Source: Actinobacteria bacterium IMCC19121
GTDB taxonomy: Bacteria; Actinomycetota; Actinomycetes; Nanopelagicales; Nanopelagicaceae
Direction of reading: 5' to 3'
Length of the DNA: 64,000 bases
NCBI GenBank assembly: GCA_002284895.1
Contig: CP015605.1
Location: 310,001-374,000, forward strand
This document shows, one piece after another, positions 13,889-62,472 of the stretch; positions within the stretch are counted from its first letter, which is position 1; every line of letters starts with the position of its first letter. The notes beneath the pieces were generated by a model that did not search any database, was not told where the DNA came from, and saw nothing but the letters and a program-made list of their open reading frames with translations. The position numbers were made by a program, and so were the translations under genes.

Positions 13889-13892
13889 CGTT

Positions 13893-14931: not shown

Positions 14932-14935
14932 AGAG

Positions 14936-14944: not shown

Positions 14945-14994
14945 GCCTTTACCCACAATGTGGATTGAATTACAAGCGTGTAATTAAGAAGGAA

Positions 14995-15261: not shown

Positions 15262-15295
15262 ACGCGAAAGATACACCATGAGCAAGAATGCTCCT

Positions 15296-15949: not shown

Positions 15950-16832
15950 TTCCAATTATCACTGTTACTCCGCCAACTAATTGAATGAAGTTCCAAGTTT
16001 CAGATAACCAGATCCAAGCAAACACACCTGCTAATACCGGCTCTGCCATTCCCATCACACTGCTTGTGGACGCGGAGAGTAGTTTTAAACCTTTAAGAAC
16101 CAACAAATAAGGAACAACAGTTCCCATGATGATTACCCAGGCGATTAATACCCAACCCGGTAAATTAAAGGCTTCAAAGCGCCCCTGCAAGTTCATCGAT
16201 TGAGAAAAGATCTCTGTGGGATATGACCAGAGCGGCATTGCAATTGCCAAGCCAAGGGATGCAAAACCAAACCCATAAACCATTAATGATTCAACATCGC
16301 GCCTGGCTGTGAGCTTTTCACCAAGTAAGAAAAATGATGCCAACACAATTCCATCAAGTAGGGCTGCGGCAACGCCAATGGGATCTAGCGTTTGGCCTTT
16401 CCAGACCTGAGCGATGAGAACCAAACCACTAAATGCTAAAAAGATTGCTACCCACATCAGCTGCGGCACTACTTTTTGTTTAACAAAGCGCAGCCACAAC
16501 ACAATCCAAATAGGGGCCGTGAACTCTAGGATCAAGGCCACAGAGACGTTTAAGCGGGTAATAGCCACGAAATACAGGGCCTGGACTAGAAGAAAACCGA
16601 TGATTCCATAAGCAAAAAGCACAGGAAGATCTTCTCTTTTAGCATTTAACTTTTCGCGATGGCGTAAAAAGATATAAAGGCCAAGAAATATAAAAGCTCC
16701 ACCGCAGCGCACCTGCGTTAAACGCATGGATGAAAGACCTGAGGTTAGAACTAACTTGGCGACAACGCCATTAAAAGAGAAAAAGATTGCGCCTAGTAAG
16801 GTGAGGATCTCTCCTTTATAGCGCGTGAACAT
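15912..16832 (-). CDS. EamA/DMT-superfamily transporter
   Basis: Ten-helix drug/metabolite transporter of 306 residues built from two EamA repeats (about 7-143 and 155-300). Each repeat starts with the typical short hydrophobic helix and a small-residue-rich second helix, such as GAIFFSFNGVVAKLV and GVAAALLDGIVLASFFLL. Such proteins usually export amino acids or other metabolites; the substrate cannot be told. It is convergent with trpG and overlaps it by 38 nt at the 3' end. Confidence 0.88.
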   Translation of the reverse strand: MFTRYKGEILTLLGAIFFSFNGVVAKLVLTSGLSSMRLTQVRCGGAFIFLGLYIFLRHREKLNAKREDLPVLFAYGIIGFLLVQALYFVAITRLNVSVALILEFTAPIWIVLWLRFVKQKVVPQLMWVAIFLAFSGLVLIAQVWKGQTLDPIGVAAALLDGIVLASFFLLGEKLTARRDVESLMVYGFGFASLGLAIAMPLWSYPTEIFSQSMNLQGRFEAFNLPGWVLIAWVIIMGTVVPYLLVLKGLKLLSASTSSVMGMAEPVLAGVFAWIWLSETWNFIQLVGGVTVIIGIILADKARSAAH

Positions 16833-16849
16833 CCGGTAAGGATAGCGGT

Positions 16850-18676
16850 TTAAAAGGCGCTCTCCGGTAACTCCATGATGGAGCCATCAGTTGCTTCCAC
16901 AATCTTGCGATCTGCGGTGATATGAGGCAAGTAGTTCTTAACAAAGAACTGCGCAGCAGCTATTTTGCCAGTATAGAAATCTTTATCTTTACCACTAGCA
17001 GTTGGCAGTTTTTCAACTGCAATATCTGCTTGGCGCAGTAGTAGCCAAGAAGTGATGATGTCTCCCACTGCCATGAGGCAACGTGAAGTGTTTAAACCAA
17101 CTTGATAGATCTTGACTGCATCTGATTGTGATTCCATCGCATGACCAACGAGAACTCCAACAATGCCGTTTAAGTCATCGAGTGCTTTAAGAAGTGCGGT
17201 CTTCTCTGCTGCATTTGAACCACCGGCATCAGCAAAAGCTTTGATCTCTTTTCCCAGCAAACCAAGTGCTCTTCCTCCATCTTTAACGATTTTACGGAAG
17301 AAGAAATCAAGACCTTGAATCGCAGTTGTGCCCTCATACAAAGTGTCGATCTTGGCATCTCGAACATATTGTTCAATAGGCCAGTCACGAGTAAATCCAG
17401 CACCACCAAATGTTTGTAGTGATTCAGTACCAAGAAGAGTCCATGACTTCTCTGATCCATAACCCTTAACTACTGGCAGTAACAAATCGTTGAGTGCAAT
17501 CATGTCTGCGGAGCGTTCTTTATCTCCTGCCTTTTCAGCTAACTCAATCTCATCTTGGATTGATGCCGTGTAGAGAACGAGTGCCCGCATTCCTTCTGAA
17601 TAAGACTTTTGAACCATTAATGAGCGGCGCACATCTGGGTGCTTAATGATGGTCACACGTGGTGAAGCTTTGTCATTCATTACCTTCATATCCCCGCCCT
17701 GCACACGCTCTTTGGCATATGCCAGAGCTTGTTGAAAACCAGTTGAAAGCGTTGCAATTGCTTTAGTTCCAACCATCATGCGGGCAAACTCAATTACTTT
17801 AAACATCTGTGCAATACCTTCATGCACTTCACCTAATAGATAGCCAACTGCAGGCTCATGCTCACCTAAATTAACTTCACACGTAGCAGAGACATTGAGT
17901 CCCATCTTGTCTTCTAGCGCAGTGACATAGACACCATTGCGCTTTCCAAGCTCACCTGTTTCAAAATCAAACATAAATTTAGGAATCAAAAATAGTGAAA
18001 GACCTTTAGTTCCAGGCCCGCCACCTTCACGGCGAGCAAGAACAAAGTGAACTACGTTGTCATAAAAGTCCGCGTCCCCTGAAGTGATGTAGCGCTTTGT
18101 TCCAGTGATGTGCCAAGTTCCATCAGGCTGTGCCACAGCCTTCGTGCGACCTGCACCAACATCTGAACCAGCATCTGGTTCAGTCAGCTGCATCGTTGCA
18201 CCCCAGTGCTTATCCACCATCAGCTTTGCAATCTTCTTCTGTTCATCTGTTCCAAGAACATAGGCAACTTGAGCAAAGGCATAACCTGAGGCATAGATGT
18301 GAATTGCAGGATTTGAACCTAAAACCATTTCAGCAATTGCCCAGCGCACAGATGGAGGAACTTTCATTCCACCTAAATCAACGGGAGCATCTAAGCGCCA
18401 CCATTCACCATCAACGTAAGCTTTGTAAGATTTGATAAAGGATGCAGGAAGCGTGACATTTCCAGTTTCTTTGTTAAGTACTGCGCCAACACGATCGCCT
18501 TCAACAAAAGATTCTGCAAGATCGTTCTCACATAAGCGCTTCATCTCTTCGAGCATGCCCATTGCGGTGTCGCGATCAACATCTGAGTACAAAGATGTAC
18601 CCATGACTTTCTCGCGCCCTAAAAGGTCAAAGAGGCAGAATTCAATATCTCGCAGGTTGGCTATGTAATGACTCAT
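16850..18676 (-). CDS. fadE5: Acyl-CoA dehydrogenase, FadE5-like (long form)
   Basis: FAD-dependent enzyme that introduces the alpha-beta double bond in acyl-CoA. From the ATG at 18676 the product is 608 residues, beginning MSHYIANLRD, much like mycobacterial FadE5 (MSHYKSNVRD). It has the extended N-terminus, the core signature QLTEPDAGSDVGA, the FAD-binding LQTFGGAGFTRDWPIEQYVRDA block with catalytic Glu region YEGTTAIQ, and an extra C-terminal domain. A TTG two codons upstream is less likely. An EtfD-like electron acceptor is encoded 8 kb away. Confidence 0.92.
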   Translation of the reverse strand: MSHYIANLRDIEFCLFDLLGREKVMGTSLYSDVDRDTAMGMLEEMKRLCENDLAESFVEGDRVGAVLNKETGNVTLPASFIKSYKAYVDGEWWRLDAPVDLGGMKVPPSVRWAIAEMVLGSNPAIHIYASGYAFAQVAYVLGTDEQKKIAKLMVDKHWGATMQLTEPDAGSDVGAGRTKAVAQPDGTWHITGTKRYITSGDADFYDNVVHFVLARREGGGPGTKGLSLFLIPKFMFDFETGELGKRNGVYVTALEDKMGLNVSATCEVNLGEHEPAVGYLLGEVHEGIAQMFKVIEFARMMVGTKAIATLSTGFQQALAYAKERVQGGDMKVMNDKASPRVTIIKHPDVRRSLMVQKSYSEGMRALVLYTASIQDEIELAEKAGDKERSADMIALNDLLLPVVKGYGSEKSWTLLGTESLQTFGGAGFTRDWPIEQYVRDAKIDTLYEGTTAIQGLDFFFRKIVKDGGRALGLLGKEIKAFADAGGSNAAEKTALLKALDDLNGIVGVLVGHAMESQSDAVKIYQVGLNTSRCLMAVGDIITSWLLLRQADIAVEKLPTASGKDKDFYTGKIAAAQFFVKNYLPHITADRKIVEATDGSIMELPESAF

Positions 18677-18769
18677 GGGCAAATAATGCTACCCACCAGT
18701 AACTTATGCAACCCTATTGAGCGTATTTTGATGCCCCGTTGGCCCTCTAATCCAAGATAGGGTCAGCGC

Positions 18770-19348
18770 GTGCTACTCAGTGATCGCGACATCCTCGCCG
18801 AAATCAAGGCTGGCCGGGTCGCCTGCGAACCATTCCATGAGGCCATGATTCAGCCATCATCGGTCGATGTTCGCCTCGATAAATACTTTCGCGTCTTTGA
18901 AAACCATAAATACAGCGTTATTGATCCATCGATAGAGCAATCAGAGCTCACCCGTGAAGTAATCGCCGAAGGCGATGAGGCTTTCATCCTGCACCCAGGT
19001 GAGTTTGTTTTAGCAAGCACCTATGAAGTTATTACTTTGCCTGATGACATTGCTGGGCGATTAGAAGGTAAATCATCACTTGGTCGTCTAGGTCTTCTTA
19101 CACATTCCACTGCGGGTTTTATTGATCCTGGCTTTAGCGGCCACATCACTTTAGAACTATCAAATGTTGCCAACCTGCCAGTAAAACTCTTTCCAGGAAT
19201 GAAGATTGGGCAGCTCTGCTTAATCAAACTTTCATCCCCTGCCGAACACCCATATGGCAGTGAGAAGTATGGCTCTCGCTATCAGGGTCAGCGCGGCCCA
19301 ACGGCTTCACGCTCGTTTTTAAACTTCCACAAATCAAAGATCGATTAA
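18770..19348 (+). CDS. dcd: dCTP deaminase (probably bifunctional dCTP deaminase/dUTPase)
   Basis: Trimeric enzyme that converts dCTP to dUTP; the actinobacterial branch typified by M. tuberculosis also hydrolyses dUTP to dUMP. The 192-residue protein starts at GTG with [12 protein letters not shown] and carries the signature [23 protein letters not shown] (positions about 97-119, including catalytic Glu98 region LEGKSS) and the C-terminal [10 protein letters not shown] loop that closes on nucleotide. Bifunctionality is inferred from phylogenetic kinship only. Confidence 0.93.
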
Positions 19349-44038: not shown

Positions 44039-46198
44039 ATGGCTAGAACTCTCCCTACCCCTGCAGCACCTGCGCAGGATGAAACTCGTGGAGTTCTAGC
44101 AATCCGCCCCTTTAGAAAACTATGGAACTCCATGGTCTTCTCATCCCTAGGCGATTGGCTAGGTCTTCTAGCAACTACTGCCATGGCTCAGCAGTTATCT
44201 GGTGGAGATTACGCAAAAGCCAACTTTGCAATTGCTGGAGTATTTATCTCTAGATTATTACCGGCAGTATTTCTAGGACCGTTAGCTGGTGTTATTGCTG
44301 ACAAATTAGATCGTCGCAAGCTCATGGTTATCTGTGACATCTTGCGCACAGGTCTATATATTTCCATTCCAATTTTTCATAACTACTTCTGGCTATACAC
44401 AGCAACCATTCTGGTTGAGTGCGTGACTTTGTTTTGGTCACCAGCTAAAGAGGCATCAGTACCAAATCTTGTGCCACGAGAAAAACTAGAATCTGCCAAT
44501 CAAGTATCACTCCTAGCCGCCTATGGCACAGCCCCCATTGCAGCACTTCTCTTTACTTTCCTTTCTCTATTCACCAGCGCTTTTGTTGCACTCATTCCTA
44601 ACTTCAACGCAACTGCAGTTGATATTGCTCTCTATGTCAATGCTGCCAGCTTTGCTTTTGCAGCTTTCACGATCTGGAACTTAAAAGAGATCCCTAAAGG
44701 AGCAGCTGCAAAGCATGCAGCTGATACAGGCATCTTGAAGTCTTTGCTAGAAGGTTGGAAATCTGTCTCTGGTTCCAAGATCATTCGTGGTCTTGTTTTG
44801 GGAATGGTGGGTGCTTTTGTTGCAGCAGGTGCTGTAATCGGACTTGCTAGAACTTTTGTGGGAGATCTTGGTGGTGGAGAGGCTGCATACGGTGTTCTCT
44901 TTGGCGCAGTCTTTACAGGATTAGCTGCCGGTATTGCCTTTGGCCCTAAAATCTTTGCACAGTTCTCTCGCAGACGCCTATTTGGTGCATCTTTAACGAC
45001 TGCAGGCTTATTCCTAGTAGGACTTGCTGCAATTCCTAACCTTGTTCTAGCGGTGTTTACAGTTATTGCTCTAGGTGCTTTTAGCGGTATTTGTTGGGTA
45101 ACAGGCTTCACCATGCTGGGCATGGAGGTTGCAGATGATGTTAGAGGGCGCACCTTTGCTTTCGTGCAAAGCCTTATCCGTGTGGTTTTAGTAGCGGTTC
45201 TAGCAATTGCGCCTTTAATTGCTGCAGCAGTTGGTCAACACACCTTTAAGTTCCAAAACACACAGTTAAGTTATAACGGTGCATCAGTAACAATCTTGAT
45301 TGCCGGACTCTTTGCAGCATTTATTGGCGCCCTTTCATATCACCAGATGAAAGATCGTCCTAACGTTTCACTTTTCTCTGATATTTCAAATGCAATAAAA
45401 GGAGAGCTTGGCAGTATTACAGGAGCCCCAACTAAAGGTGTCTTCATCGTCTTTGAAGGCGGCGAAGGAATTGGTAAAACAACTCAGGCAAAACTATTAA
45501 AGGCCTGGCTAGAACAAGAAGGCGAGAGCGTTGTTCTCTCACGTGAGCCTGGTGGAAGTGATCTAGGAATAGAGATTAGAAAAATTCTTCTCTCTCACTC
45601 AACAGGAGAAATTAGTCCACGTGCTGAAGCACTTCTCTATGCCGCAGATCGCGCGCATCATGTTTTCTCTGTCATTCGCCCAGCGCTGGCTGCTGGGGAA
45701 GTAGTAATTAGTGATCGATACTTTGATTCATCTATCGCTTACCAAGGCGCAGGAAGAGTGCTAGAGCCTGGCGAAGTGGCAAGAATTTCTAGATGGGCAA
45801 CAGAGTCATTGTTTCCAACGTTAACCATAATTATTGATCTGCCAGCAGAGATTGGTTTAGGGCGCTTAAAGAGTAAAGATCGCCTTGAATCACAACCACT
45901 AGCCTTTCATGAGCGCGTGCGCCAAGAGTTCTTGCAGCTATCCCTGCTTGATCCTGAGCGCTATTTCATCGTTGATGGCAACAAATCAATTGAAGAGATT
46001 CACAGCGCCATCATCACTCGCGTGAGTGAGATCGGTGCACTCAAGCGCAATGCACAAGAAGACAAAGGCAATTTACTTCTGCGCCCAATAAGGGCTGCAG
46101 GAAAAGCTGTAAGAACAACAGCGAAGAAAACTAGCGCTGGTGCGACAAAGGCTGTGAACAAAGCTAAGCCTAAAAAGAAAGCAAAAGTTAAGAAGTGA
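44039..46198 (+). CDS. tmk: MFS transporter-thymidylate kinase fusion
   Basis: 719-residue fusion. Residues about 20-450 form a 12-helix MFS domain (LGDWLGLLATTAMA, LGPLAGVIADKLDRRKLMVICD). Residues about 465-680 are thymidylate kinase with P-loop EGGEGIGKTTQAKLL, SREPGG, the DR-Y motif SDRYFDSSIAYQG, and the LID region. A Lys/Ala-rich tail of about 40 residues ends the protein. The kinase converts dTMP to dTDP. This MFS-Tmk fusion is known in Actinobacteria; what the transporter half carries is unknown. It overlaps holB by 4 nt. Confidence 0.93.
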   Translation: MARTLPTPAAPAQDETRGVLAIRPFRKLWNSMVFSSLGDWLGLLATTAMAQQLSGGDYAKANFAIAGVFISRLLPAVFLGPLAGVIADKLDRRKLMVICDILRTGLYISIPIFHNYFWLYTATILVECVTLFWSPAKEASVPNLVPREKLESANQVSLLAAYGTAPIAALLFTFLSLFTSAFVALIPNFNATAVDIALYVNAASFAFAAFTIWNLKEIPKGAAAKHAADTGILKSLLEGWKSVSGSKIIRGLVLGMVGAFVAAGAVIGLARTFVGDLGGGEAAYGVLFGAVFTGLAAGIAFGPKIFAQFSRRRLFGASLTTAGLFLVGLAAIPNLVLAVFTVIALGAFSGICWVTGFTMLGMEVADDVRGRTFAFVQSLIRVVLVAVLAIAPLIAAAVGQHTFKFQNTQLSYNGASVTILIAGLFAAFIGALSYHQMKDRPNVSLFSDISNAIKGELGSITGAPTKGVFIVFEGGEGIGKTTQAKLLKAWLEQEGESVVLSREPGGSDLGIEIRKILLSHSTGEISPRAEALLYAADRAHHVFSVIRPALAAGEVVISDRYFDSSIAYQGAGRVLEPGEVARISRWATESLFPTLTIIIDLPAEIGLGRLKSKDRLESQPLAFHERVRQEFLQLSLLDPERYFIVDGNKSIEEIHSAIITRVSEIGALKRNAQEDKGNLLLRPIRAAGKAVRTTAKKTSAGATKAVNKAKPKKKAKVKK

Positions 46199-51222: not shown

Positions 51223-51786
51223 ATGTCTCAACCAAACTTGACTGACTACGTGGCTCGAATATTCGCCTCCTTTGAGAGGGTGAATTCAGAATCGTTAAAG
51301 GGAGTAGTAGATCTCCTCCGAGAATCAATTGAATCGAATTGTAGGATTTGGATTATTGGCAATGGGGGAAGTGCCGCGACCGCCAGCCACTTTGCGACAG
51401 ATTTAAACCGTTGCACAAATTCGGTAGGCAAATCGGTAAAGGCAATGAGTCTTTGTGACAATACAAGTCTAATCACAGCAATTGGTAATGATTTTGGATA
51501 TGACCAGGTTTTCTCTCGACAGTTACACAATTCTGCCAGCTCGGGCGATTTATTGATTGTTCTTTCAGCATCGGGAAATTCGAAAAATATTATCTCAGCG
51601 CTGGAGTGGGCGCAAAACAATAAGGTAACCACCTTGGCACTAACTGGATTTGATGGTGGCCAAGCAAAAGTATTGGCCGATACTTCACTTCATGTTCCTA
51701 CATCAAATGGTGATTATGGAGTGGCTGAAGACGCACACTCAATCCTCTGCCATTTTTTAAGCTCTCAATTTCGAAACTTCGCCTAG
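51223..51786 (+). CDS. gmhA: GmhA-like sedoheptulose 7-phosphate isomerase (SIS domain)
   Basis: 187-residue SIS-fold isomerase. GNGGSAATASHFATDL and VLSASGNSKNI form the sugar-phosphate site, and the active-site Glu/His region near the C-terminus is EDAHSILCHFL. Length and motifs match GmhA, which converts sedoheptulose 7-phosphate to D-glycero-D-manno-heptose 7-phosphate, the first step of heptose activation. DiaA-like SIS proteins are the alternative. It is the first of a rightward run of sugar genes after a 220-bp gap. Confidence 0.85.
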   Translation: MSQPNLTDYVARIFASFERVNSESLKGVVDLLRESIESNCRIWIIGNGGSAATASHFATDLNRCTNSVGKSVKAMSLCDNTSLITAIGNDFGYDQVFSRQLHNSASSGDLLIVLSASGNSKNIISALEWAQNNKVTTLALTGFDGGQAKVLADTSLHVPTSNGDYGVAEDAHSILCHFLSSQFRNFA

Positions 51787-51844: not shown

Positions 51845-53056
51845 ATGAAAAAATTATTAAATTACGATGTGCTCATCATTGGTGGAGGAGTTATTGGGCT
51901 CAGTATCGCAATTGCGTTACAGAAAAGCCAAGAGAAATTAAAAATTGTTATTGCAGAAAAAGAAGAAAAAGTCATTCTCCACGCTAGCGGTCGAAATTCT
52001 GGCGTGATCCATGCAGGCTTTTACTATTCATCGGAGTCACTTAAATCTAAGTTCTGTCGGCTCGGAAATTCGGAGTTGAAGAAATTCTGTCGTGACCAGA
52101 ATCTACCATTGCTAGAAATTGGTAAAGTCGTTGTTGCCAAGGATGAAGATGATGTGAAGCGTTTAGAAGCCTTAGTGGAGCGTGCGCAAGCAAATGGCGT
52201 CGACATTGATTTACTTGAAGAAGGCAACTTAACAAAGTATGAACCCATGGCTAAGACTTATGAAAAGTTTCTTTGGTCCCCCGCAACTGCAATTGCTGAT
52301 CCAAAGGAGGTAGGACGTGCGTTAGAAAAAGTCTTCTTGGCCCGTGGAGGAAAGATTCTGTTTAATGAAAAACTCATGCATTTTCAGGAAAATATAGCAG
52401 TGTTTGCTTCAGGAAATACGGTTGGCTTTAAAGCCTGCGTTAATTCTGCTGGAGCGGGGGCACTTGCTATCGCCAACAAATGTGGAATTGGCAGAGAATT
52501 CGAGCTACTACCAGTTCTAGGTGGGTACATCTCAACTTCCAAAAACAACATCCCACTAAGGACGATGGTTTATGCAGCACCACATCCCTTAAGCCCGTTT
52601 CTAGGTATACATTTCACACCAACTCTCGACAATCAGGTAAAGATTGGGCCCACAGCCATACCAGTACTCGGAAGTGAGCAGTATTCTGCAATGGATGGTT
52701 TTAGCGCACAAGAGATGGGATCTACATTACGTGCTCTAAATAGTTACGTGCTTGGTGATCCAATAACTGCGGTTAAAACATTAGGCAATCAGCTGTCTCA
52801 GGCAAGTTTACGGAGCATGGTTAATGCTGCATCAGATCTAGTTCCGAATACACCCGAACCAAAAGTATGGAGCAGAGGAAAAGCTGGTATACGTTCACAG
52901 TTAGTTGATCTAAACAAAAGAGAATTTGTCCAAGATTTTGTGATTTCTGAGAGCCCCGGCATTGTGCATATCCTAAACGCTGTTTCGCCAGGTTGGACAA
53001 GTGCTCTTCCATTCGGAAGATATGTCGTTGAAGAATTTCTCTTAAGCAAAATCTAA
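51845..53056 (+). CDS. LhgO-like FAD-dependent oxidoreductase
   Basis: 403-residue DAO-family flavoenzyme similar to L-2-hydroxyglutarate oxidase. The FAD loop is IIGGGVIGLSIAIAL, followed by the family hallmark HASGRNSGVIHAGFYY and the C-terminal SPGWTSALPFGRYV. The known family reaction is oxidation of L-2-hydroxyglutarate; in a glycan cluster the substrate could be another 2-hydroxy acid or sugar derivative. It lies 58 nt after gmhA on the same strand. Confidence 0.85.
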   Translation: MKKLLNYDVLIIGGGVIGLSIAIALQKSQEKLKIVIAEKEEKVILHASGRNSGVIHAGFYYSSESLKSKFCRLGNSELKKFCRDQNLPLLEIGKVVVAKDEDDVKRLEALVERAQANGVDIDLLEEGNLTKYEPMAKTYEKFLWSPATAIADPKEVGRALEKVFLARGGKILFNEKLMHFQENIAVFASGNTVGFKACVNSAGAGALAIANKCGIGREFELLPVLGGYISTSKNNIPLRTMVYAAPHPLSPFLGIHFTPTLDNQVKIGPTAIPVLGSEQYSAMDGFSAQEMGSTLRALNSYVLGDPITAVKTLGNQLSQASLRSMVNAASDLVPNTPEPKVWSRGKAGIRSQLVDLNKREFVQDFVISESPGIVHILNAVSPGWTSALPFGRYVVEEFLLSKI

Positions 53057-53825: not shown

Positions 53826-54836
53826 ATTAAGTGCCTAGTTACAGGAGGAGCAGGCTTCATAGGGAGTCATTTAACTGAGTTACTCCTATCCCATGGGCAT
53901 CAAGTCACCGTTGTTGATAACTTGTCAGTTGGAAAAACCAATAACTTTGCAAGCTTTGCCGAGTCACCAAACTTTAGATTTATACAACTAGATGTGTCAG
54001 ATTTCGAAGCACTTTCAAATGTATTCAGTGGTATTGATTGGGTGTTTCATCTCGCAGCTTTAGCTGACATTGTTCCTTCAATAGAAAACCCTGAAGCTTA
54101 TTTCCAGTCAAATGTTGTGGGATCTTTTAACGTTGCAAAGTTATCAGCAGAAAATAACGTTAAACGTGTAGTTTACGCTGCTTCATCATCGTGCTATGGA
54201 ATTCCAAAGAGTTTCCCTACATCAGAAGATGCTGGGTGCGATCCCAAATACCCATACGCTTTAACGAAGTATCTAGGTGAGCAAATCATGATGCACTGGA
54301 ACTCTGTTTATGACCTGCCAGTAGTGTGCTTAAGGTTATTCAACGTGTATGGGCCACGCGCTAGAACCTCAGGTACATACGGAGCTGTTTTTGGTGTTTT
54401 CCTTGCCCAGAAATTAGCTGGTGCTCCCTTTACGATAGTCGGGGATGGTACTCAGACCAGAGATTTCACTTTCGTGAGCGATGTGTGTCAAGCATTCTTA
54501 ACTGCAGCCGAATCGGAACTTGCAGGCGAAATCATGAACGTTGGGTCGGGTAATACCTATGAGGTAAATGAGCTTGTGAGACTTCTCGGAGGGCCAGTTG
54601 TACATATTCCTAAGCGACCTGGAGAGCCTGACTGCACATTTGCGGATATCACGAGAATAAGGAGAAAGTTGGATTGGTCTCCAACAGTCAATTTAGAAAA
54701 AGGCGTTGAAATCATGCTTGAACACATTAATGATTGGCAAGATGCCCCTTTATGGGACAGCTCTGGAATTGAAAATGCCACAAAATCTTGGTTCAAGTAC
54801 TTGGGAAAAGAATCAGAAGTGACCCTCAATGACTAG
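53826..54836 (+). CDS. NAD-dependent nucleotide-sugar epimerase/dehydratase, apparent ATT start
   Basis: Extended SDR of 336 residues. The frame is open from 53808 and the conserved Rossmann start KCLVTGGAGFIGSHL follows directly after an ATT codon at 53826, eight bases after GGGGAGG, a strong ribosome binding site. No ATG, GTG or TTG is available before the Rossmann motif; the nearest in-frame ATG (53922) would delete it. YALTK provides catalytic Tyr and Lys. Function is UDP/NDP-sugar 4-epimerase or dehydratase. The ATG at 53818 is out of frame by one base, so a one-base deletion is the other explanation. Confidence 0.85.
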   Translation: MKCLVTGGAGFIGSHLTELLLSHGHQVTVVDNLSVGKTNNFASFAESPNFRFIQLDVSDFEALSNVFSGIDWVFHLAALADIVPSIENPEAYFQSNVVGSFNVAKLSAENNVKRVVYAASSSCYGIPKSFPTSEDAGCDPKYPYALTKYLGEQIMMHWNSVYDLPVVCLRLFNVYGPRARTSGTYGAVFGVFLAQKLAGAPFTIVGDGTQTRDFTFVSDVCQAFLTAAESELAGEIMNVGSGNTYEVNELVRLLGGPVVHIPKRPGEPDCTFADITRIRRKLDWSPTVNLEKGVEIMLEHINDWQDAPLWDSSGIENATKSWFKYLGKESEVTLND

Positions 54837-56370
54837 AAATTCTAATCAACAGGGTTTAAAGATTTATAAATGGGCCGATATCGCTACCCTTACATCAAAA
54901 TTACAAGCAGACGGATCAACTCTTGCGCTCTGCCATGGTGTTTTTGACCTACTTCACCCTGGGCATATTCAACATTTTAAGGTAGCGCGAAAACTGGCAG
55001 AGGTTTTGATTGTGAGCATAACTGCCGATGTGTTTGTCAACAAAGGCCCGGGGAGACCGATATTCAATCAAGAAATACGAGCTGAAACCTTGGCTGCACT
55101 TCAGGATGTAGATTATGTTGTGATTTGCGAAAACCCAACTGCTATTGAACTACTTAATGAGATTAAACCTAATTATTATGTTAAAGGTTCAGATTATCTG
55201 AATGCAGTTGACGATGTAACGGGAATGATTGTTAAAGAGAGAGAAGTTCTTGAAAAACATGGAGGTCAAATCTATTTTACCGATGAGATGACATCCAGTA
55301 GCTCACTTTTGATTAATAAATTCTTTTCTAATATTGCTCCTGATGCTCAGGAATGGATCAAGAAATTCAAACTTGACCATGGCTATGATCAAGTAGTTGA
55401 AGCGCTAGATAAGATCCAAGAATTAAATGTTCTTTTGCTGGGTGAGACCATTATAGATCAATACACATATTGCTCACCGCTTGCTAAATCGAGCAAGGAT
55501 CCCATTTTGGCTTTCCACCAACACAAAACGAACCTGTTTCCAGGCGGGGTACTAACTATTGCCAATAATTGCAGCAGTTGGGTTAAGCAAGTGAAGGTGA
55601 TCTCATTTTCTGCACCAGAAGATACAACTTTGGATTCCTTAATGTGGAAGATGAATTCGAATGTGGCCACAGAGTTTGTTAAAACGACAGACAGGCCGAC
55701 AATTTTGAAGCATAGATATGTGGAATCAGGCTCAAATACTAGAGTGTTTGAATACTATGATTTTTCTGAAATCGATTTGCCAACAGAAACAAGTGATGCG
55801 ATTCTATCCTCGATTTCTAAGCAGGTTTCTGCATTTGATTTAGTCTTAGCAGCAGATTACGGTCATGGCTTTTTTAGCTCTAAAACTATTTCTTTTCTGG
55901 AGGAATCCAACTGCAATCTCTCGGTAAACACACAGGCAAATGCAGGTAATCGAGGGTACAACACCATTTCTAAATATCCTCGAGCTGATTTCATTACAAT
56001 GAATGGTGCGGAACTGCAGCTAGAGTTGCGAAACAGAAATCCTGATTACCAACAAATTGTGCCAGTCTTAATTGCTTCGATGAAGGTAAAATGTGCAATT
56101 GTGACGTTAGGTGGTGACGGATTAATGGTTTTTGATAATGAAGGTGGCTATGAAAAAGTTCCAGCGCTAGCAGGGAAATTGGTCGATAAAGTTGGGGCGG
56201 GGGACGCAGTGTTTGCAATGGCGTCATTACTAGCAAAGGTTGGAGCTCCACTCAAGGTAATTGGCTTCCTATCAAATTTAGTGGCAGCACACGAGGTCTC
56301 TCAATTAGGACATGAGAAGTCACTCTCACAAGCAGATTTGCGAAAACATGCAAAATCAATTCTCGGATAG
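54829..56370 (+). CDS. HldE-like fusion in reverse order: nucleotidyltransferase then PfkB kinase
   Basis: 513-residue bifunctional protein. Residues about 15-165 are a cytidylyltransferase-fold domain with GVFDLLHPGH (HxGH at 43-46) and YVKGSDY, like the HldE C-terminal domain. Residues about 195-510 are a ribokinase/PfkB domain with LLLGETIIDQY and the catalytic VGAGDAVFA at about 455. E. coli HldE has the domains the other way round. Expected reactions are phosphorylation of heptose 7-phosphate at O1 and nucleotidylation of heptose 1-phosphate. It overlaps the epimerase gene by 8 nt. Confidence 0.88.
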   Translation: MTRNSNQQGLKIYKWADIATLTSKLQADGSTLALCHGVFDLLHPGHIQHFKVARKLAEVLIVSITADVFVNKGPGRPIFNQEIRAETLAALQDVDYVVICENPTAIELLNEIKPNYYVKGSDYLNAVDDVTGMIVKEREVLEKHGGQIYFTDEMTSSSSLLINKFFSNIAPDAQEWIKKFKLDHGYDQVVEALDKIQELNVLLLGETIIDQYTYCSPLAKSSKDPILAFHQHKTNLFPGGVLTIANNCSSWVKQVKVISFSAPEDTTLDSLMWKMNSNVATEFVKTTDRPTILKHRYVESGSNTRVFEYYDFSEIDLPTETSDAILSSISKQVSAFDLVLAADYGHGFFSSKTISFLEESNCNLSVNTQANAGNRGYNTISKYPRADFITMNGAELQLELRNRNPDYQQIVPVLIASMKVKCAIVTLGGDGLMVFDNEGGYEKVPALAGKLVDKVGAGDAVFAMASLLAKVGAPLKVIGFLSNLVAAHEVSQLGHEKSLSQADLRKHAKSILG

Positions 56371-56380: not shown

Positions 56381-57373
56381 ATGACAAAACGAACCGTAGT
56401 AGTTTTTGGTGGGGGCGGGTATGTGGGTGCAGTTTTAACGCCTATGTTGCTAGCTGAAGGCTACACGGTCCGGGTGTTTGACACATTTTGGTACGGGAAA
56501 GCGGTATTTACTGGAGAAGCTTTAAACCCAAACCTTGAGTTAATTGCCGGTGACATTCGCGACCTAGAAGCAGTCACATCTGCTTTAAAGGGAGCGACGG
56601 ATGTAATCCACCTGGCCTGTATCTCGAATGATCCTAGTTTTGATTTAGATCCCGCGCTTGGAAAATCAATCAACCTTGATAGCTTTGCTCCCCTGGTCAA
56701 AATAGCTAAACAGAGCGGGGTGCATCGTTTTATTTATGCATCTTCTTCATCGGTGTACGGCGTAAAAGTTGAAGAAAAGGTTACTGAAGAGTTAAGCCTG
56801 GAACCCCTCACGGACTATTCAAGATTTAAAGCAAACTGCGAGGAGATAATTCTTGCAGCACATACTTCTGATTTCAGATGCACTGTACTAAGGCCTGCGA
56901 CAGTTTGTGGTGTTTCATCCCGTCAACGCTTCGACCTTTCTGTCAATATTCTGACGAATCACGCCGTCAACCTTAAGAAGATTACAGTTTTTGGCGGATC
57001 CCAATTTAGACCCAACCTACATATTCAAGACATGGCTCGGGCCTATCTGCATGTATTGGCTCAAGACAAGAAAATCGACGGTGCAATCTTTAATGTCGGT
57101 GGAGAGAATTTATCACTCGATCAAATTGCGCTGAAAGTCCAAAAACAGATCGATCTTAATTTAGAAATTCACCATAGTGATACAGACGACTTGCGCTCAT
57201 ATCGTGTTGATTCTTCAAAGATTCTAGATGAACTTGGGTTTAAGCCAATTTATTCAGTGGATCAGGCAATTGCAGATCTACAGAAGGCATTTGTCAAGGA
57301 TAATTACAATAACTCTCTTGAAAATTCGATGTATTTTAATATTAAGCGAATGAAAGAGTTGTCTTTAGCTTGA
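56381..57373 (+). CDS. NAD-dependent sugar epimerase/dehydratase
   Basis: 330-residue extended SDR. FGGGGYVGAVL is the cofactor loop and YSRFK supplies the catalytic Tyr and Lys; ASSSSVYG precedes them. It could epimerise an NDP-heptose in the way HldD does, or build a keto or deoxy sugar for the methyltransferase. It lies 10 nt after the HldE-like gene and its stop overlaps the next start (TTGA). Confidence 0.87.
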   Translation: MTKRTVVVFGGGGYVGAVLTPMLLAEGYTVRVFDTFWYGKAVFTGEALNPNLELIAGDIRDLEAVTSALKGATDVIHLACISNDPSFDLDPALGKSINLDSFAPLVKIAKQSGVHRFIYASSSSVYGVKVEEKVTEELSLEPLTDYSRFKANCEEIILAAHTSDFRCTVLRPATVCGVSSRQRFDLSVNILTNHAVNLKKITVFGGSQFRPNLHIQDMARAYLHVLAQDKKIDGAIFNVGGENLSLDQIALKVQKQIDLNLEIHHSDTDDLRSYRVDSSKILDELGFKPIYSVDQAIADLQKAFVKDNYNNSLENSMYFNIKRMKELSLA

Positions 57374-57978
57374 GAGCCGTACCAAAGAGATTTGGCTTTG
57401 ACTTAGATAATACACTTATTGATTATTCTGTTGCAGTTCAAAAGTATTGTTTAAATGAGGGATTACATGAATGCAAAACTCTAGATAGCCTTCGATCTTT
57501 GCTGCGTAGATCTGACACGACAGGTCGTCTGTGGCAGTTAGCGCAGGGATGGCTATATACAGATGGGCTTTCATACGCCAGATCAGGGCATGGGGCGGTT
57601 GAACTTTGTGAGTTCTTAAGAAATAGTAATTTCGAGCTAATGATAGTTAGTCATAAAACAACCCATACCCCTGATTTTTGTGGCCAAAAACCCCTTCGCG
57701 AAATAGCGACTAAATGGATTAATAACAGCGATCTTGCCGATTACTTTCTCGGAAATGAACAGATTTACTATGAAGCTACTCGAGCGTTAAAAGTTGAAAG
57801 AATTCAGAAACTTAAATTCAATTATTTTGTTGATGATCTTGTAGAAGTGTTTCAGGAGCCTGGGTTCCCCCAAGATGTGAGTAGTTTTCTTCTCTCGGGA
57901 ACAGGATCTGAGTTAACTTGGGTTCAAGGTGTTCCATCCCTTAATGCCATTAAAGGATTGATAGAAAATGAAGAATGA
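57370..57978 (+). CDS. HAD-superfamily protein
   Basis: 202-residue protein starting at TTG, coupled to the epimerase stop. Motif I is FDLDNTL near residue 10, a Thr/Ser motif II lies in MIVSHKT and the acidic motif IV is YFVDDLVEVF. It is likely a small-molecule phosphatase. It is a second candidate for the GmhB-like step of removing phosphate between the kinase and nucleotidyltransferase reactions. It overlaps the next gene by 11 nt. Confidence 0.75.
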   Translation: MRAVPKRFGFDLDNTLIDYSVAVQKYCLNEGLHECKTLDSLRSLLRRSDTTGRLWQLAQGWLYTDGLSYARSGHGAVELCEFLRNSNFELMIVSHKTTHTPDFCGQKPLREIATKWINNSDLADYFLGNEQIYYEATRALKVERIQKLKFNYFVDDLVEVFQEPGFPQDVSSFLLSGTGSELTWVQGVPSLNAIKGLIENEE

Positions 57979-58942
57979 AATATATCCGCACCGACTAAAA
58001 ATAGGTACAGCGACTGTCTCTGCAGAAATTCCTGGCGGTAACAGTTCAGTTTTTAAAGGGCATCTACCTGATGGTACTGCATTAGCTATTAAAGAGTATA
58101 AAGGCGATAAGCAACGAATAGAAAGAATGCTCTCCCGTGAAGAGAAAGCTATAAATTTTCTTCGGGGGCATGGAATGCGAGATATTCCAGAGATTCTAGA
58201 AGTTAGAACTGATTTAGGTTTGATTGTGTATAGATGGATTGAAGGGAATGCGCCGTTAGCTAATCATGAAGCAATGAATGCAATAATCAAAATGAATGGT
58301 GCCCTTGCAGATATCCACAAAAACGGTGGAATTTTCGATAATGCAATCGATGCAGTATTTTCCGTACCTGAAATTAGTAATCAAATCTTGACTCGTATTC
58401 AGCAGTTTCACGTGTCTTACCCGACAACTAGAATACGTGTCTTGTGCGACCAATTGAATGAACGATTACGTAGTTGTATAAGCAGTAAATCTCAAAATTC
58501 TGAATTCACTCAGCACACATTAAGCGTCTCAGATTTAGGAACACATAATATAATCTCTTCGGAAGGTGTTTATAACTTTATTGATTTTGAATTCTTTGGA
58601 TTAGATAGTATTCATAAACTAGTAGGAGATTTCTTGTTGCACCCCAGAAATGATTTTAAAGAGGCAGAGATGTTTCGGTTTATGGAATCAATTTCCAATA
58701 TTTCAAATTGGGATTCAATTGAACTAAACAAAGTTATGCCTCTATTGACACTTAAATGGGCGCTGATTGCCTATGGGCGGACATTTAGAGAGGCAAAACT
58801 TGAGGCAACAGGCGAAATCACAGAAGAACAGATTAAGAAATCCAATGGTTCCCTTTACTTGGATTACTTCGACTCATTAAGGCTTGCTGAGGGTCAGGAC
58901 AGGTTCGTAACATTTCGTTCTTTCAAAGGTAGTATTGGCTAG
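57968..58942 (+). CDS. Aminoglycoside phosphotransferase/choline kinase-like kinase
   Basis: 324-residue protein with a protein-kinase-like fold. Residues near 30-50 contain the glycine loop and a Lys (ALAIKEYKG); the catalytic loop is degenerate, SDLGTHNII instead of HGDLHxxN, but keeps Asp and Asn; the metal site is IDFEFFG, a DFG-like motif. It may phosphorylate a sugar or other polyol in the pathway. AT-rich codon use matches its neighbours. It overlaps the HAD gene upstream. Confidence 0.72.
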   Translation: MKNEIYPHRLKIGTATVSAEIPGGNSSVFKGHLPDGTALAIKEYKGDKQRIERMLSREEKAINFLRGHGMRDIPEILEVRTDLGLIVYRWIEGNAPLANHEAMNAIIKMNGALADIHKNGGIFDNAIDAVFSVPEISNQILTRIQQFHVSYPTTRIRVLCDQLNERLRSCISSKSQNSEFTQHTLSVSDLGTHNIISSEGVYNFIDFEFFGLDSIHKLVGDFLLHPRNDFKEAEMFRFMESISNISNWDSIELNKVMPLLTLKWALIAYGRTFREAKLEATGEITEEQIKKSNGSLYLDYFDSLRLAEGQDRFVTFRSFKGSIG

Positions 58943-58944: not shown

Positions 58945-59784
58945 ATGACAACTAATTATGTGGAACTCGCTAACAAGATAGCGCTTGATAAGAGATCAAG
59001 AGTGCTTCGCTCGATGGTTCTTGATGCCCTCGAGGGCGGAGGGCGAGGTCATCTTGGGCCAGCTTTGTCTTTGCTTGAGATAGTCAGAGCGCTCTATGAC
59101 TCCGTGTTAAATCATGACCCTTCAAACCCCTTGCTTGTGAGTAGAGATAGGTTTGTACTGAGCAAGGGCCACGGGTGTTTAGGTTTGTTTACCGTTTTAG
59201 CAGATCACGGTTATTTTCCAACCTCTGAGTTACGAGGGTTTTGTGGTTTTGAATCCAATTTGGGAGGGCACCCCGAAAGGGCTACGTTGCCCGGCATTGA
59301 ATTCTCTACTGGAGCACTTGGACACGGCCTTTCTGTCGGAATTGGCATGGCAATGGCTTCTCGATTACGTAATGAGAAATGGCGCACATTCGTGTTACTC
59401 GGTGACGGTGAACTAAATGAAGGATCGGTGTGGGAAGGAGCTATGCATGCCTCGCAGCACCAACTTGGTGCATTGACGGTTATTGTGGATTTCAATCGCA
59501 TGCAAGCATCAGGCGACATTGATTCGATTGTTTCACTAGCACCACTAGCTGCTAAATGGGAAGCATTCGGTTTTGAAGTTACCGAAGTCAATGGCCACGA
59601 TGTTGAACAATTAACAGAAGTTCTAGGAAACTCTATAAATCCTCATGGGAAACCTAGAGTTGTAATTGCCCATACAGTTAAAGGAAAAGGTTTTGTTTCG
59701 GCCGAGAATTCAACTGCATGGCACCATAAAGCTAAAATTGCTAAAGATGAAATTTCCTCTCTACGGGCAGAAGTGGCTGTCTAA
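58945..59784 (+). CDS. Transketolase, N-terminal (thiamine diphosphate) subunit
   Basis: 279-residue protein equal to the first half of transketolase. GHLGPALSLLEI, LSKGHGCLGL and the ThDP/metal motif GDGELNEGSVWEGAMHAS (about residue 152 on) are visible. Split transketolases transfer a two-carbon unit between sugar phosphates. It overlaps the C-terminal subunit gene by one base. As part of a glycan cluster it could supply sedoheptulose 7-phosphate or build a branched or shortened sugar. Confidence 0.92.
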   Translation: MTTNYVELANKIALDKRSRVLRSMVLDALEGGGRGHLGPALSLLEIVRALYDSVLNHDPSNPLLVSRDRFVLSKGHGCLGLFTVLADHGYFPTSELRGFCGFESNLGGHPERATLPGIEFSTGALGHGLSVGIGMAMASRLRNEKWRTFVLLGDGELNEGSVWEGAMHASQHQLGALTVIVDFNRMQASGDIDSIVSLAPLAAKWEAFGFEVTEVNGHDVEQLTEVLGNSINPHGKPRVVIAHTVKGKGFVSAENSTAWHHKAKIAKDEISSLRAEVAV

Positions 59785-60716
59785 TGAGACAGAAAGCCCT
59801 TACAACAGTCTATAAACTAGCCAAACAAGACCCCAGAGTTTTATTCATTGGCTCTGACTTAGGTGCCGGAACGCTTCAGGCTATGCGGGAAGATATTCCA
59901 GGGCAGTTTTTTATGGAAGGAATTTCTGAGCAACATATTGTTGGTTTTGCTGCAGGACTTGCACAAGAAGGTTTTATACCTTACATAAATACAATTGGTA
60001 CATTCTTAACAAGACGATCATTTGAACAAGTTTCAATAGACGTTGGTCTTCACTGCTTGCCAGTACGCCTATTATCAAGCGGCGGCGGGATGGTATACGC
60101 ACCATTAGGGCCAACACACACAGCGGTAGAGGATTTTTCCTTAATGCTAAGCGTCCCTAATATGAAAGTTTTTGCCCCAGCTGATGCATTTGAGATGGAA
60201 AATCTCCTAACCGCATTGGTTGACGATGGAGACCCCCATTATGTTCGCTTTGGCAAGGGGGGAGAAACCATAGTCACTCAAGATTTTCCAACTTTTGAAT
60301 TCTCACCAAAGGTTTTTGGTGAGAATTCATCAGATGTAGTGATTTTTACTACAGGGGTCATGCTCCAGCATTGCCTTGAGGCGCGCGCGCACCTTCTTAG
60401 TCAGGGAATATCAACCACTGTATTACATTTTCCCTATTTAAATGATTTATCGATTGAGCAAATTGCTTCCCATATTGAGTCGGCCCGATTAATGGTTTGT
60501 GTGGAGGAGCATGTCCCTAGAGGGGGTCTCTTTACGCAGATTCTTCACGAATTCGCTTCAACGCGAATATCTACCAAGAACCTCTATCAACTGTCGTTAC
60601 CGAGTGCATTTTCCCATAATTATGGCTCTCAAATCGATCACTTAGATTTAAATGGCCTGACGGCACCAAAGATTGCCGCACACGTTGAGGCTTTATTAGT
60701 TAATAACGGCAAATAA
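59784..60716 (+). CDS. Transketolase, C-terminal subunit
   Basis: 310-residue protein with the pyrimidine-binding domain (FMEGISEQHIVGFAAGLAQEG, holding the Glu that activates ThDP, and YINTIGTFL) and the C-terminal transketolase domain. It starts in the TAATG overlap with the N-terminal subunit, so the two are made in equal amounts. The pair resembles split TktA/TktB and deoxyxylulose-synthase-like proteins; the missing link peptide shows it is a true two-subunit form, not a frameshift, because both halves have full family ends. Confidence 0.92.
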   Translation: MRQKALTTVYKLAKQDPRVLFIGSDLGAGTLQAMREDIPGQFFMEGISEQHIVGFAAGLAQEGFIPYINTIGTFLTRRSFEQVSIDVGLHCLPVRLLSSGGGMVYAPLGPTHTAVEDFSLMLSVPNMKVFAPADAFEMENLLTALVDDGDPHYVRFGKGGETIVTQDFPTFEFSPKVFGENSSDVVIFTTGVMLQHCLEARAHLLSQGISTTVLHFPYLNDLSIEQIASHIESARLMVCVEEHVPRGGLFTQILHEFASTRISTKNLYQLSLPSAFSHNYGSQIDHLDLNGLTAPKIAAHVEALLVNNGK

Positions 60717-60730: not shown

Positions 60731-61396
60731 ATGAGAAAAGAGTTAAATTTAGTTACAAGTCTTCACATGGCTACCAAGAGGGATTACTTGGGTCGGATGA
60801 ATGATTCAAAAGTAGAAGCAATGATGATAGCTAAGCAATACGGCGCCGACTATTGGGACGGTGACCGTAAGTATGGATATGGTGGATATAAATATATGCC
60901 TGGTCGTTGGGCAACAGTTGCCCAAAAACTCATCGATCTTTATGGGTTAAAAGCGGGTAGTAAAGTACTAGACGTTGGGTGCGGCAAGGGGTTTCTCCTA
61001 TATGAGATGCAGTTAATAGAGCCTGGTCTAGAAATTCATGGGTTTGACATTTCTCAATATGGTTTAGACCATGCACACCCAGATCTAAAAGCAAACCTAT
61101 TTATACATCGAGCACAGGACCCATACCCATTCGGAGACAATTCTTTTGATCTCGTAATATCACTAGGTACTCTCCACAATTTGCATATTTTTGAGTTAGA
61201 GATTGCCGTGGCAGAAATTGAACGTGTCGGCAAGCAAGGTTACATAATGCTCGAAAGCTTCCGAAATGAATTAGAAATGTTTAACTTAGAATGTTGGGCA
61301 TTAACAGCAGAGTCATTGATGGATGTTGATGAATGGAAATGGGTATATGACCGTTTTGGATTCAAAGGCGACTACGAGTTCATTTTCTTTGAGTAA
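60731..61396 (+). CDS. Class I SAM-dependent methyltransferase
   Basis: 221-residue methyltransferase with the SAM motif VLDVGCGKGFLLYEM near residue 83 and the second acidic motif at HGFDIS. It lacks the zinc module of the 49037 gene, so is not a C-methyltransferase of that type. Possible substrates are hydroxyls on the sugar or a small precursor. It lies 14 nt after the transketolase pair. Confidence 0.85.
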   Translation: MRKELNLVTSLHMATKRDYLGRMNDSKVEAMMIAKQYGADYWDGDRKYGYGGYKYMPGRWATVAQKLIDLYGLKAGSKVLDVGCGKGFLLYEMQLIEPGLEIHGFDISQYGLDHAHPDLKANLFIHRAQDPYPFGDNSFDLVISLGTLHNLHIFELEIAVAEIERVGKQGYIMLESFRNELEMFNLECWALTAESLMDVDEWKWVYDRFGFKGDYEFIFFE

Positions 61397-61407: not shown

Positions 61408-62472
61408 ATGTTATCCATTAAGTCTACACAGGCTGCAATTCTTGTTGAATCTAGTAAACCTTTAATTGTCGATGAAATTCAACTCCCCGAGGAGTTATTT
61501 GCCGGTCAGGTTCTTGTAGAGGTATTGACTAGTGGATTGTGCGGAGCTCAGATAAATGAAATAGAAGCTGTAAAAGGGCCTGACAAATTTTTACCACACC
61601 TGTTAGGGCATGAAGGTTTTGCACATGTAATTGAGGTGGGGCCGGGTGTAACAACCGTGGCACCTGGAGATCAAGTCGTGATGCATTGGCGACCAGGCAC
61701 TGGTATTCAATCAAAACCACCCATTTATAAGTGGCGAGGTAAACAACTTAATGCCGGTTGGGTGACGACCCTTAATAAGCATGCAGTTGTATCCGAGAAT
61801 CGGGTGACAAAAATCCCAAGTTCAACTCATGATAAAAATTTGATTCCATTGCTTGGTTGCGCGCTTACCACATCGCTAGGAGTCTTAGAGAATGATGCGA
61901 AAATAGGGATTCGGGATTCCTTGCTTATTTTTGGCGCAGGTGGAGTGGGACTTCTTCTCATTAAATTAGCAAAATTAATGGGTATAATTGATATTACTGT
62001 GGTCGACATTCATTCTGTGAAACTATCAAAGGCTCAAGAAATCGGAGCAACAAAAACTTTGATATTTCAAAATAAGCATGAAACCTTAACTGCATTACAA
62101 GCTATTTTTGGGAACCGTTTACCTTCAGTTGCGATTGATACAACCGGCCATACTGATGCTATTGAAATTTGCTATGAGATTTCTTTGTCAGATGCTCGAG
62201 TAATACTGGTTGGTGTTCCAAGAGCAGGGAATAATGCAAGTATTTATACATTGCCATTGCATTTTGGTAAAGTTCTTAAAGGCTCTGAGGGAGGCCAATC
62301 AAAACCAGAAAGAGACATCCCTTTGCTTATGCAGTTGGTTTCTGACAAGCGATTAAATTTTGATGACTACCCAACACATAGTTTCCCTTTGATTGGCATA
62401 AATGAAGCTATAGGTCAATTGAAAAATGGAACAATCGGGCGCATGATTATAGATTTAAGTGATACCAGGTAG
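61408..62472 (+). CDS. Zinc-type medium-chain alcohol dehydrogenase
   Basis: 354-residue MDR-family enzyme. Catalytic zinc ligands are Cys in SGLCGAQ, His/Glu in LLGHEGFAHV and Cys in LLGCALTT; the Rossmann loop is IFGAGGVGLLL. The usual four-cysteine structural zinc loop is missing. Likely to oxidise or reduce a polyol or sugar with NAD(P). Part of the same rightward operon-like run. Confidence 0.88.
   Translation: MLSIKSTQAAILVESSKPLIVDEIQLPEELFAGQVLVEVLTSGLCGAQINEIEAVKGPDKFLPHLLGHEGFAHVIEVGPGVTTVAPGDQVVMHWRPGTGIQSKPPIYKWRGKQLNAGWVTTLNKHAVVSENRVTKIPSSTHDKNLIPLLGCALTTSLGVLENDAKIGIRDSLLIFGAGGVGLLLIKLAKLMGIIDITVVDIHSVKLSKAQEIGATKTLIFQNKHETLTALQAIFGNRLPSVAIDTTGHTDAIEICYEISLSDARVILVGVPRAGNNASIYTLPLHFGKVLKGSEGGQSKPERDIPLLMQLVSDKRLNFDDYPTHSFPLIGINEAIGQLKNGTIGRMIIDLSDTR

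Follow-up and report, generated by a model that had tools for sequence, protein, structure and literature searches.

The closest described counterpart of the locus reported here is a Bradyrhizobium gene cluster linked to bradyrhizose, a ten-carbon sugar. In 2016, Busset et al. stated that the genes for bradyrhizose synthesis were unknown (PMC4743980, available text). According to the same text, insertion in gdh abolishes both the O-antigen and bradyrhizose; gdh belongs to an eleven-gene cluster about 44 kb from rfaL, which encodes 427 amino acids (aa) and has rfaE nearby, and the authors assumed that this operon makes bradyrhizose. Elsewhere, split-gene transketolases (TKs) are proposed to place a hydroxyacetyl unit on keto sugars in two antibiotics, miharamycin and amipurimycin; the available portion of that report gives 13 further streptomycete candidates, none characterized in vitro (PMC12247030). 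Here we analyze a 64,000-nucleotide stretch of Actinobacteria bacterium IMCC19121 (contig CP015605.1, positions 310,001 to 374,000; hereafter the window), in which a split TK lies within an operon that shares most of its gene families with the bradyrhizose-linked cluster. We favor, with moderate confidence and from sequence comparison, the reading that this split TK is a dedicated thiamine diphosphate (ThDP) enzyme passing a two-carbon (glycolyl) unit to a sugar intermediate, in a conserved operon for a bradyrhizose-type higher-carbon surface sugar.

Several other systems resemble the pair in part. YerE (yersiniose) and AviB1/B2–Pau11/12 (branched octoses) likewise perform ThDP-dependent two-carbon branching of a keto sugar but, as far as their sources describe them, use pyruvate and so transfer an acetyl unit; YerE is a decarboxylase-superfamily enzyme and no transketolase, whereas the domains of the window pair are those of a transketolase. 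The Campylobacter jejuni capsule heptose pathway has a GmhA-type isomerase, a kinase, and a nucleotidyltransferase, as does the window operon. Its Cj1427 oxidizes GDP-heptose at C4, converting α-ketoglutarate to L-2-hydroxyglutarate; the pathway ends with epimerases and a C4 reductase, and the word "transketolase" occurs 0 times in the main text of the paper (PMC10680097). The miharamycin and amipurimycin enzymes share with the window pair a split architecture and, as proposed, the movement of a hydroxyacetyl unit onto a keto sugar; in the text available, theirs are Streptomyces enzymes, compared here by description only, whereas the window's belongs to a heptose-type operon of many phyla (PMC12247030).

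The TK is encoded by two adjoining genes:

58945..59784, + strand: TK-N, the ThDP-binding half of the split TK; 279 aa, ATG start (Pfam, PDB, alignment)
59784..60716, + strand: TK-C, the pyrimidine-binding and C-terminal half; 310 aa, ATG start (Pfam, PDB, alignment)

The junction reads TAATG, one base being common to stop and start. TK-N carries Pfam Transketolase_N (166.6 bits, cut-off 22; residues 20–276), and TK-C carries Transket_pyr (98.1 bits, cut-off 27) and Transketolase_C (54.9 bits, cut-off 25.9), so that all three TK domains are present and complete across two chains. Coordinates, junction, and domains agree exactly with the initial annotation, which had described two genes with a one-base overlap encoding complete TK halves. 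The nearest PDB sequences to the two halves are the two chains of the Carboxydothermus hydrogenoformans split TK (6yak, 1.1e-59; 6yaj, 3.5e-33).

Both halves align along their length with the genome's other TK. In that alignment the ThDP motif GDGELNEG...FNR and the catalytic-glutamate motif GISEQ match, and the histidines of the N half are retained, as are arginines at the start of TK-C and at VRFGKGG; these arginines we take to be phosphate contacts in the E. coli enzyme, and the choice of which aligned residues matter is likewise our assumption. The equivalents of H461 and D469—presumably the canonical substrate residues, in E. coli TK numbering—are replaced by G and L within the segment GGGMVYAPLGPTH. 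The module-clade TK-Cs that were aligned have this segment with small changes, and the same two positions are replaced there too. Unlike the window family, which reads GGGxxYAPLGxTH at this point, the Carboxydothermus split TK keeps THAGLTVGEDGASH.

Around the pair, the initial annotation had placed a sugar-modification island. The neighboring sugar genes are real, and the cluster continues beyond the window:

51223..51786, + strand: GmhA-like SIS isomerase (phosphoheptose isomerase type); TIGR00441 gmhA 125.6 bits, below the equivalog cut-off of 209.45; SIS_2; 38% identical to the Bradyrhizobium-cluster homolog
51845..53056, + strand: L-2-hydroxyglutarate oxidase-like flavoprotein; NF008726 290.5 bits, cut-off 299; DAO
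53826..54836, + strand: Epi1, NAD-dependent sugar-nucleotide epimerase/short-chain dehydrogenase/reductase (SDR); best PDB profile matches are epimerase entries (6dnt, 5.4e-54)
54829..56370, + strand: HldE-like protein, cytidylyltransferase-like domain first, then PfkB kinase; CTP_transf_like, PfkB; HldE/rfaE models below equivalog cut-offs
56381..57373, + strand: Epi2, SDR with nearest PDB entry 6vo6; profile 7.2e-57 against 7.8e-39 for the next entry; 40% identical to the Bradyrhizobium-cluster homolog
57370..57978, + strand: HAD2, small HAD-type phosphatase without a Pfam family; invariant DxDNT, SHK, TR..K, and DDL over 16 rows
57968..58942, + strand: APH-like small-molecule kinase (phosphotransferase); window copy without Pfam match; invariant SxSDxGxHN and DxE over 16 rows
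60731..61396, + strand: MT2, strongly conserved S-adenosylmethionine (SAM)-dependent methyltransferase; 57% identical to Solidesulfovibrio, 46% to the Bradyrhizobium cluster
61408..62472, + strand: zinc-dependent alcohol dehydrogenase (ADH), after MT2; ADH_N, ADH_zinc_N; 36% identical to the Bradyrhizobium-cluster copy

The comparison with bradyrhizose genes depends on locating the published cluster. The published gdh forward primer (PMC4743980) matched 3 of 98 sampled genomes with no more than 3 mismatches, against 1 for a backward-pattern control, and the peptide of the reverse primer is encoded near the gdh primer site in two: G602 (1 mismatch) and G572 (3). Two reaction-centre genes are present in G602, a photosynthetic Bradyrhizobium genome; the same search gave no match in G572. 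In G602 the rfaL primer matches, with 2 mismatches, at a site 43 kb from gdh, inside a 427-aa open reading frame (ORF) that follows an rfaE/HldE-like ORF, and gdh stands among eleven closely spaced same-strand genes that include a split TK. From the primers, the reaction-centre genes, the distance and length of rfaL, and the gene number, we infer that the G602 cluster is the published gdh cluster. Its genes, in order and with identity to the window, are HldE-like (22%), nucleoside triphosphate (NTP)-transferase, Epi2 (40%), GmhA (38%), gdh, TK-N (45%), TK-C (33%), ADH (36%), HAD2 (28%), APH (24%), and MT2 (46%).

Profiles of ten window-type families, built without G602 and G572, find nine of the ten in the gdh cluster of G602 and likewise nine of ten in that of G572, the gene content expected of a bradyrhizose-type operon. 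In G602 all best matches fall within the cluster (GmhA 228 bits, HldE 245, Epi2 356, HAD2 201, APH 258, TK-N 323, TK-C 310, MT2 295, and ADH 329), and the motifs of HAD2 and APH align between it and the window. Both clusters thus have an HldE-like protein, Epi2, GmhA, TK-N, TK-C, ADH, HAD2, APH, and MT2; the gdh cluster differs in having a TK of another clade, another gene order, an added NTP-transferase, and gdh instead of Epi1. Identity of Epi1 or Epi2 with the published gdh was considered and rejected: the G602 cluster holds Epi2 and, as a distinct SDR gene, gdh, and against the window-type operons L166–L170 the gdh primers have 7 to 9 mismatches at the best site per locus.

The control split TKs lack this company. 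Among 20 control split-TK loci (15 same-genus and 5 same-class, 7 to 20 kb each), only TK-N and TK-C exceeded the thresholds set; sub-threshold SDR matches to Epi1/Epi2 occurred in 9 of the 20, and GmhA, HldE, HAD2, APH, MT2, and ADH gave no match at E up to 1e-4. A survey of 150 genomes, 90 of them same-genus, found a split-type TK-N as a second TK in at least 15 of those 90, 37–45% identical to the window N half. The 15 neighborhoods, two of them stretches of only ~7.5 kb, hold generic epimerase or aminotransferase-like genes in places and no profile match to HAD2, APH, MT2, GmhA, HldE, or ADH. We rejected these genus split TKs as orthologs of the window pair on the basis of their N-half identity, their other contexts, and the SDR matches nearby, all of them sub-threshold.

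The split TK pair is accessory, and dedicated rather than central. The host genome, a single 1,506,415-base contig at 99.95% completeness, encodes a second, full-length TK (G000:C1, about 1001413–1003002; 687-aa frame, 429 bits), the central-metabolism copy that the initial annotation had expected elsewhere. MT2, which serves as the operon marker, had a match at E up to 1e-30 in a single one of 135 genus genomes, the host's own; 44 of the 135 have completeness of 90% or more and contamination of 5% or less. Because a second full-length TK is present and MT2 occurs in a single genus genome, the pair is neither the sole TK of the genome nor part of an operon held by all strains. A dedicated two-carbon transfer step in surface-sugar synthesis, as first suggested, fits what was found, and would be the role predicted by these comparisons. 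The results support that reading, which was sound but too modest: it missed that the TK belongs to a transferable operon of heptose type, most of whose gene families are also those of the bradyrhizose cluster.

Across copies, the recurrent operon content is a GmhA-like isomerase, two SDRs, an HldE-like protein, a HAD phosphatase, an APH-like kinase, TK-N, TK-C, and a methyltransferase, often with an ADH; the order of APH–TK-N–TK-C–MT2, together with GmhA, Epi1, HldE, Epi2, and HAD2, is conserved between phyla. Copies were located with MT2 as the marker: an MT2-pair scan of genome_contigs matched 171 stretches, 87 of which encode relatives, and the best 80, many on short contigs, were kept. MT2 is present in every scanned locus because the loci were selected with it. 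A TK half at 40% identity or more occurs in 34 of the 80 by BLAST, and a TK in 38 by profile. The 38 TK-bearing loci include APH in 31, HAD2 in 28, Epi2 in 26, HldE in 23, GmhA in 20, and Epi1 in 19, with ADH inside the fetched stretch in only 11; the 42 without TK include HldE and GmhA in 2 each and APH, HAD2, Epi2, and Epi1 in 1 each. These family counts describe the set and are not a test, because the profiles were built from the window and those same loci. In nine module-clade loci whose flanks reach 7.5 kb or more on each side, TK-N and TK-C are present in all nine, Epi2 in 8, HAD2 in 7, Epi1 and HldE in 6, and GmhA and ADH in 4; APH is counted in 9 of 9, beside the TK in 7 and as a weaker opposite-strand match 12 kb away in L138 and L139.

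The operon is transferable. Plasmid pDCAR1 of Solidesulfovibrio carbinolicus carries HAD2–APH–TK-N–TK-C–MT2 in window order (31, 26, 50, 45, and 57% identity). It also has pse genes, a gene annotated as SIS, and an HldE-like gene (35% over 497 residues) whose domains come in the same reversed order. A short contig of the same phylum as the window (G425) carries APH–TK-N–TK-C (28, 49, and 54%), and a search of 396 phylum genomes for the APH-like kinase gave 2 matches, the host genome and G425. The corresponding search of plasmids found none, though the Solidesulfovibrio plasmid copy aligns at 26%. Searches for close relatives gave no confirmed match for TK-C in genome_contigs and viral_contigs or for MT2 in viral_contigs; against phage records, TK-C matched 35 records, all below 60% identity, with 18 of 20 among the matches listed unannotated.

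In the TK tree, 38 rows including the window are joined at 100/100, the window being sister to Actinomycetales L103. The record names in this clade span ten phylum-level groups, one of them archaeal: Actinomycetota, Pseudomonadota, Thermodesulfobacteriota, Myxococcota, Hydrogenedentota, Planctomycetota, Acidobacteriota, Verrucomicrobiota, Bacteroidota, and Woesearchaeota. Single phylum placements may be binning errors because many are contigs of metagenome-assembled genomes. Six further loci (L108, L117, L119, L127, L130, and L133) pair MT2, mostly with heptose genes, with TKs outside the 38-row clade. Three of these (L117, L119, and L130, from records named Rhodospirillaceae, Pelagibacteraceae, and Nanoarchaeia) have split TKs whose C half aligns over only ~160 residues.

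The MT2 loci without TK come largely from one genus: 31 of the 42 are from records named Bradyrhizobium, and ADH lies in the stretch in 38 of the 42. In many Bradyrhizobium loci (L075 10001–11723 and the like), MT2 is paired with ADH at a distance from the sugar operon. All five genomes followed up from TK-less loci (L071, L072, L075, L092, and L095) encode a window-type Epi2 (E 5e-166 or better) and TK-C (2e-121 or better) elsewhere, and the regions fetched from them hold GmhA, Epi1, HldE, Epi2, HAD2, APH, TK-N, and TK-C. A further MT2 sits inside the operon itself in three of the five (L166–L168), and in the Methylocapsa genome (L071) MT2 appears, by coordinates, on the same contig as TK-C, ~14 kb away. 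The four Bradyrhizobium operons reached through L075, L092, L095, and L072 (L166–L169) are of window type, with a TK of the window clade and not that of the gdh cluster; in the two of these genomes tested for reaction-centre genes, none were found.

From the observed gene content, synteny, families, and bradyrhizose-cluster match, we derive predicted reactions, a predicted substrate order, and putative roles for the APH-like kinase and HAD2. The GmhA-like isomerase would isomerize sedoheptulose-7-phosphate, and the HldE-like protein with a HAD phosphatase would activate the product as a nucleotide-heptose. Epi2 would then oxidize C4 in the manner of Cj1427; it is nearer to PDB entry 6vo6, which we take to be C. 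jejuni Cj1427, a GDP-heptose C4-dehydrogenase, than to any other solved SDR. The L-2-hydroxyglutarate oxidase-like gene in the window cluster is suggestive of a Cj1427-like Epi2, in that the flavoprotein could recycle L-2-hydroxyglutarate made by such a dehydrogenase; relatives of it (29–31%) adjoin four operon copies (L109, L118, L123, and L124). The TK would add two carbons at the C4 ketone, so forming a tertiary alcohol with a ketone at C9, adjacent to C8; a methyl transferred from SAM by MT2 would be the tenth carbon; ADH would make a C7 aldehyde; and a C7–C8 aldol would close a six-membered carbocycle, which an SDR would later reduce. The APH-like kinase and HAD2 might phosphorylate and dephosphorylate an intermediate around the TK step, or HAD2 might alternatively be a heptose-bisphosphatase.

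The resulting carbon sum, 7+2+1=10, is compatible with the published ring closures. According to the available text on its structure, bradyrhizose is a ten-carbon sugar that forms a furanose when the C1 aldehyde closes on OH-4 and a pyranose when it closes on OH-5 or OH-9 (PMC9912281). These closures place both C5 and C9 on a hydroxylated C4 and make the carbocycle C4 to C9; since the aldehyde closes on OH-4, OH-5, or OH-9, C4 is the branched tertiary-alcohol carbon. It can thus be deduced that a heptose bearing a two-carbon unit at a C4 ketone and closed between C7 and C8 has the bradyrhizose skeleton. More tentatively, we suggest a wider possibility: inositol-fused C10 sugars of the bradyrhizose kind may be products of a single transferable operon in many bacterial phyla and in archaea, whose split TK would pass glycolyl to a nucleotide-heptose C4 ketone, whose methyltransferase would add the tenth carbon, and in which an intramolecular aldol would then close the carbocycle.

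In a literature search (titles and abstract openings, with subscription journals mostly outside its scope), no paper among those listed assigned bradyrhizose a transketolase or described the operon. The operon offers a concrete gene-by-gene pathway for two gaps, the unknown bradyrhizose genes (PMC4743980, available text) and the candidate split TKs uncharacterized in vitro (PMC12247030, available text). If the favored reading is true, a transketolase would make a tertiary alcohol in surface-glycan synthesis, and what is known as a Bradyrhizobium sugar would recur on the surface of many microbes.

Several results weigh against the bradyrhizose-type reading. The arginines at the presumed phosphate positions are kept and would equally suit an ordinary sugar-phosphate reaction, and the C-methyl group on bradyrhizose is taken here from general background. 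In the G602 cluster, Epi1 is sub-threshold, its 82.6-bit match falling on gdh itself, and the window cluster showed no NTP-transferase gene. The G602 TK lies outside the window's 38-row clade (100/100), so the two TKs do not behave as orthologs; it falls instead with TKs of other sugar clusters, on weak support (89/84) and in a region that the tree program marks for long branches. TK exchange and parallel recruitment are both possible causes of this mismatch between related operons, and because of it the product of the window operon is uncertain. GmhA was not found in five of the nine well-flanked module-clade loci, HldE being found in 6, and the fetched pDCAR1 stretch has no Epi2 or GmhA match at threshold, with the SIS gene annotated at its edge. 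The argument from the five genomes with Epi2 and TK-C elsewhere is weak because three hold an extra MT2 in the operon and one has its MT2 ~14 kb from the TK. On the published side, the bradyrhizose phenotype comes from insertions in one gene, possibly polar (PMC4743980, available text), and the available text on split TKs has none shown in vitro to use a ketone sugar (PMC12247030).

A rival reading is branching without ring closure, in which the TK places a glycolyl branch on a keto-sugar nucleotide to give a monocyclic branched nonose, a surface-glycan counterpart of the miharamycin and amipurimycin enzymes. The equivalents of H461 and D469 (numbers as assumed above) are replaced in split TKs of several contexts, and on a Methylovirgula plasmid a related TK pair comes immediately after CDP-glucose 4,6-dehydratase, an oxidoreductase, and RfbH; hydroxyacetyl transfer to a keto sugar is also what has been proposed for split-gene TKs, in the text available (PMC12247030). 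We nevertheless consider branching alone unlikely: ADH, HAD2, APH, and MT2, held in common with the bradyrhizose cluster, suggest shared later steps, though ADH was found in only 11 of the 38 TK-bearing loci. Supply of a precursor, our first idea and one that we keep as a rival, seems less probable again. The split TK would then make sedoheptulose-7-phosphate or a longer ketose phosphate for the GmhA-like isomerase, consistent with the GmhA and HldE neighbors and with the arginines retained at the presumed phosphate-binding positions; the lincomycin octose pathway is a precedent for a dedicated ketose-making step. Set against this, the genome already has a full TK, the nine well-flanked loci have APH beside the TK in 7 and GmhA in only 4, and the C. 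jejuni heptose paper is silent on transketolase throughout its main text (PMC10680097). A redundant or decaying central-metabolism paralog carried by chance would explain a recognizable TK with intact ThDP residues, and is very improbable given that synteny holds over ten phylum-level groups and that the frames are intact, with sugar genes alongside.

Individual genes of the window cluster bear further comment. The start of Epi1 is probably a rare ATT at 53826, preceded by GGGGAGG, and not the TTG at 53922 given by the ORF finder; the Rossmann motif precedes 53922, and no in-frame ATG, GTG, or TTG lies ahead of it. HAD2 had no PDB relative below E 0.5 by profile, the query alignment including fused APH domains; HAD2 and the APH-like kinase are fused into one ORF in L069, L110, L112, L120, and L145. 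The APH-like kinase profile matches the corramycin phosphotransferase 8agy at 6.1e-7, and the Bradyrhizobium counterpart is a PF01636 APH protein (7.2e-13).

Minor observations concern the surroundings of the operon. Downstream of the window cluster (G000:C1:366001–386000, at 13020–18343), genes that by eye, from their translations, resemble PseG, PseB, PseC, PseH, PseI, and PseF are followed by genes that likewise look HisH/HisF-like; the Solidesulfovibrio plasmid copy likewise sits among pse genes. That plasmid stretch also contains two different split TK pairs, at 7067–8835 and 17163–18936, the N half of the second being missing from the listed annotation. Within the window, at 44039–46198, a single 719-aa ORF resembles, by eye from its translation, a membrane transporter fused to a thymidylate kinase.

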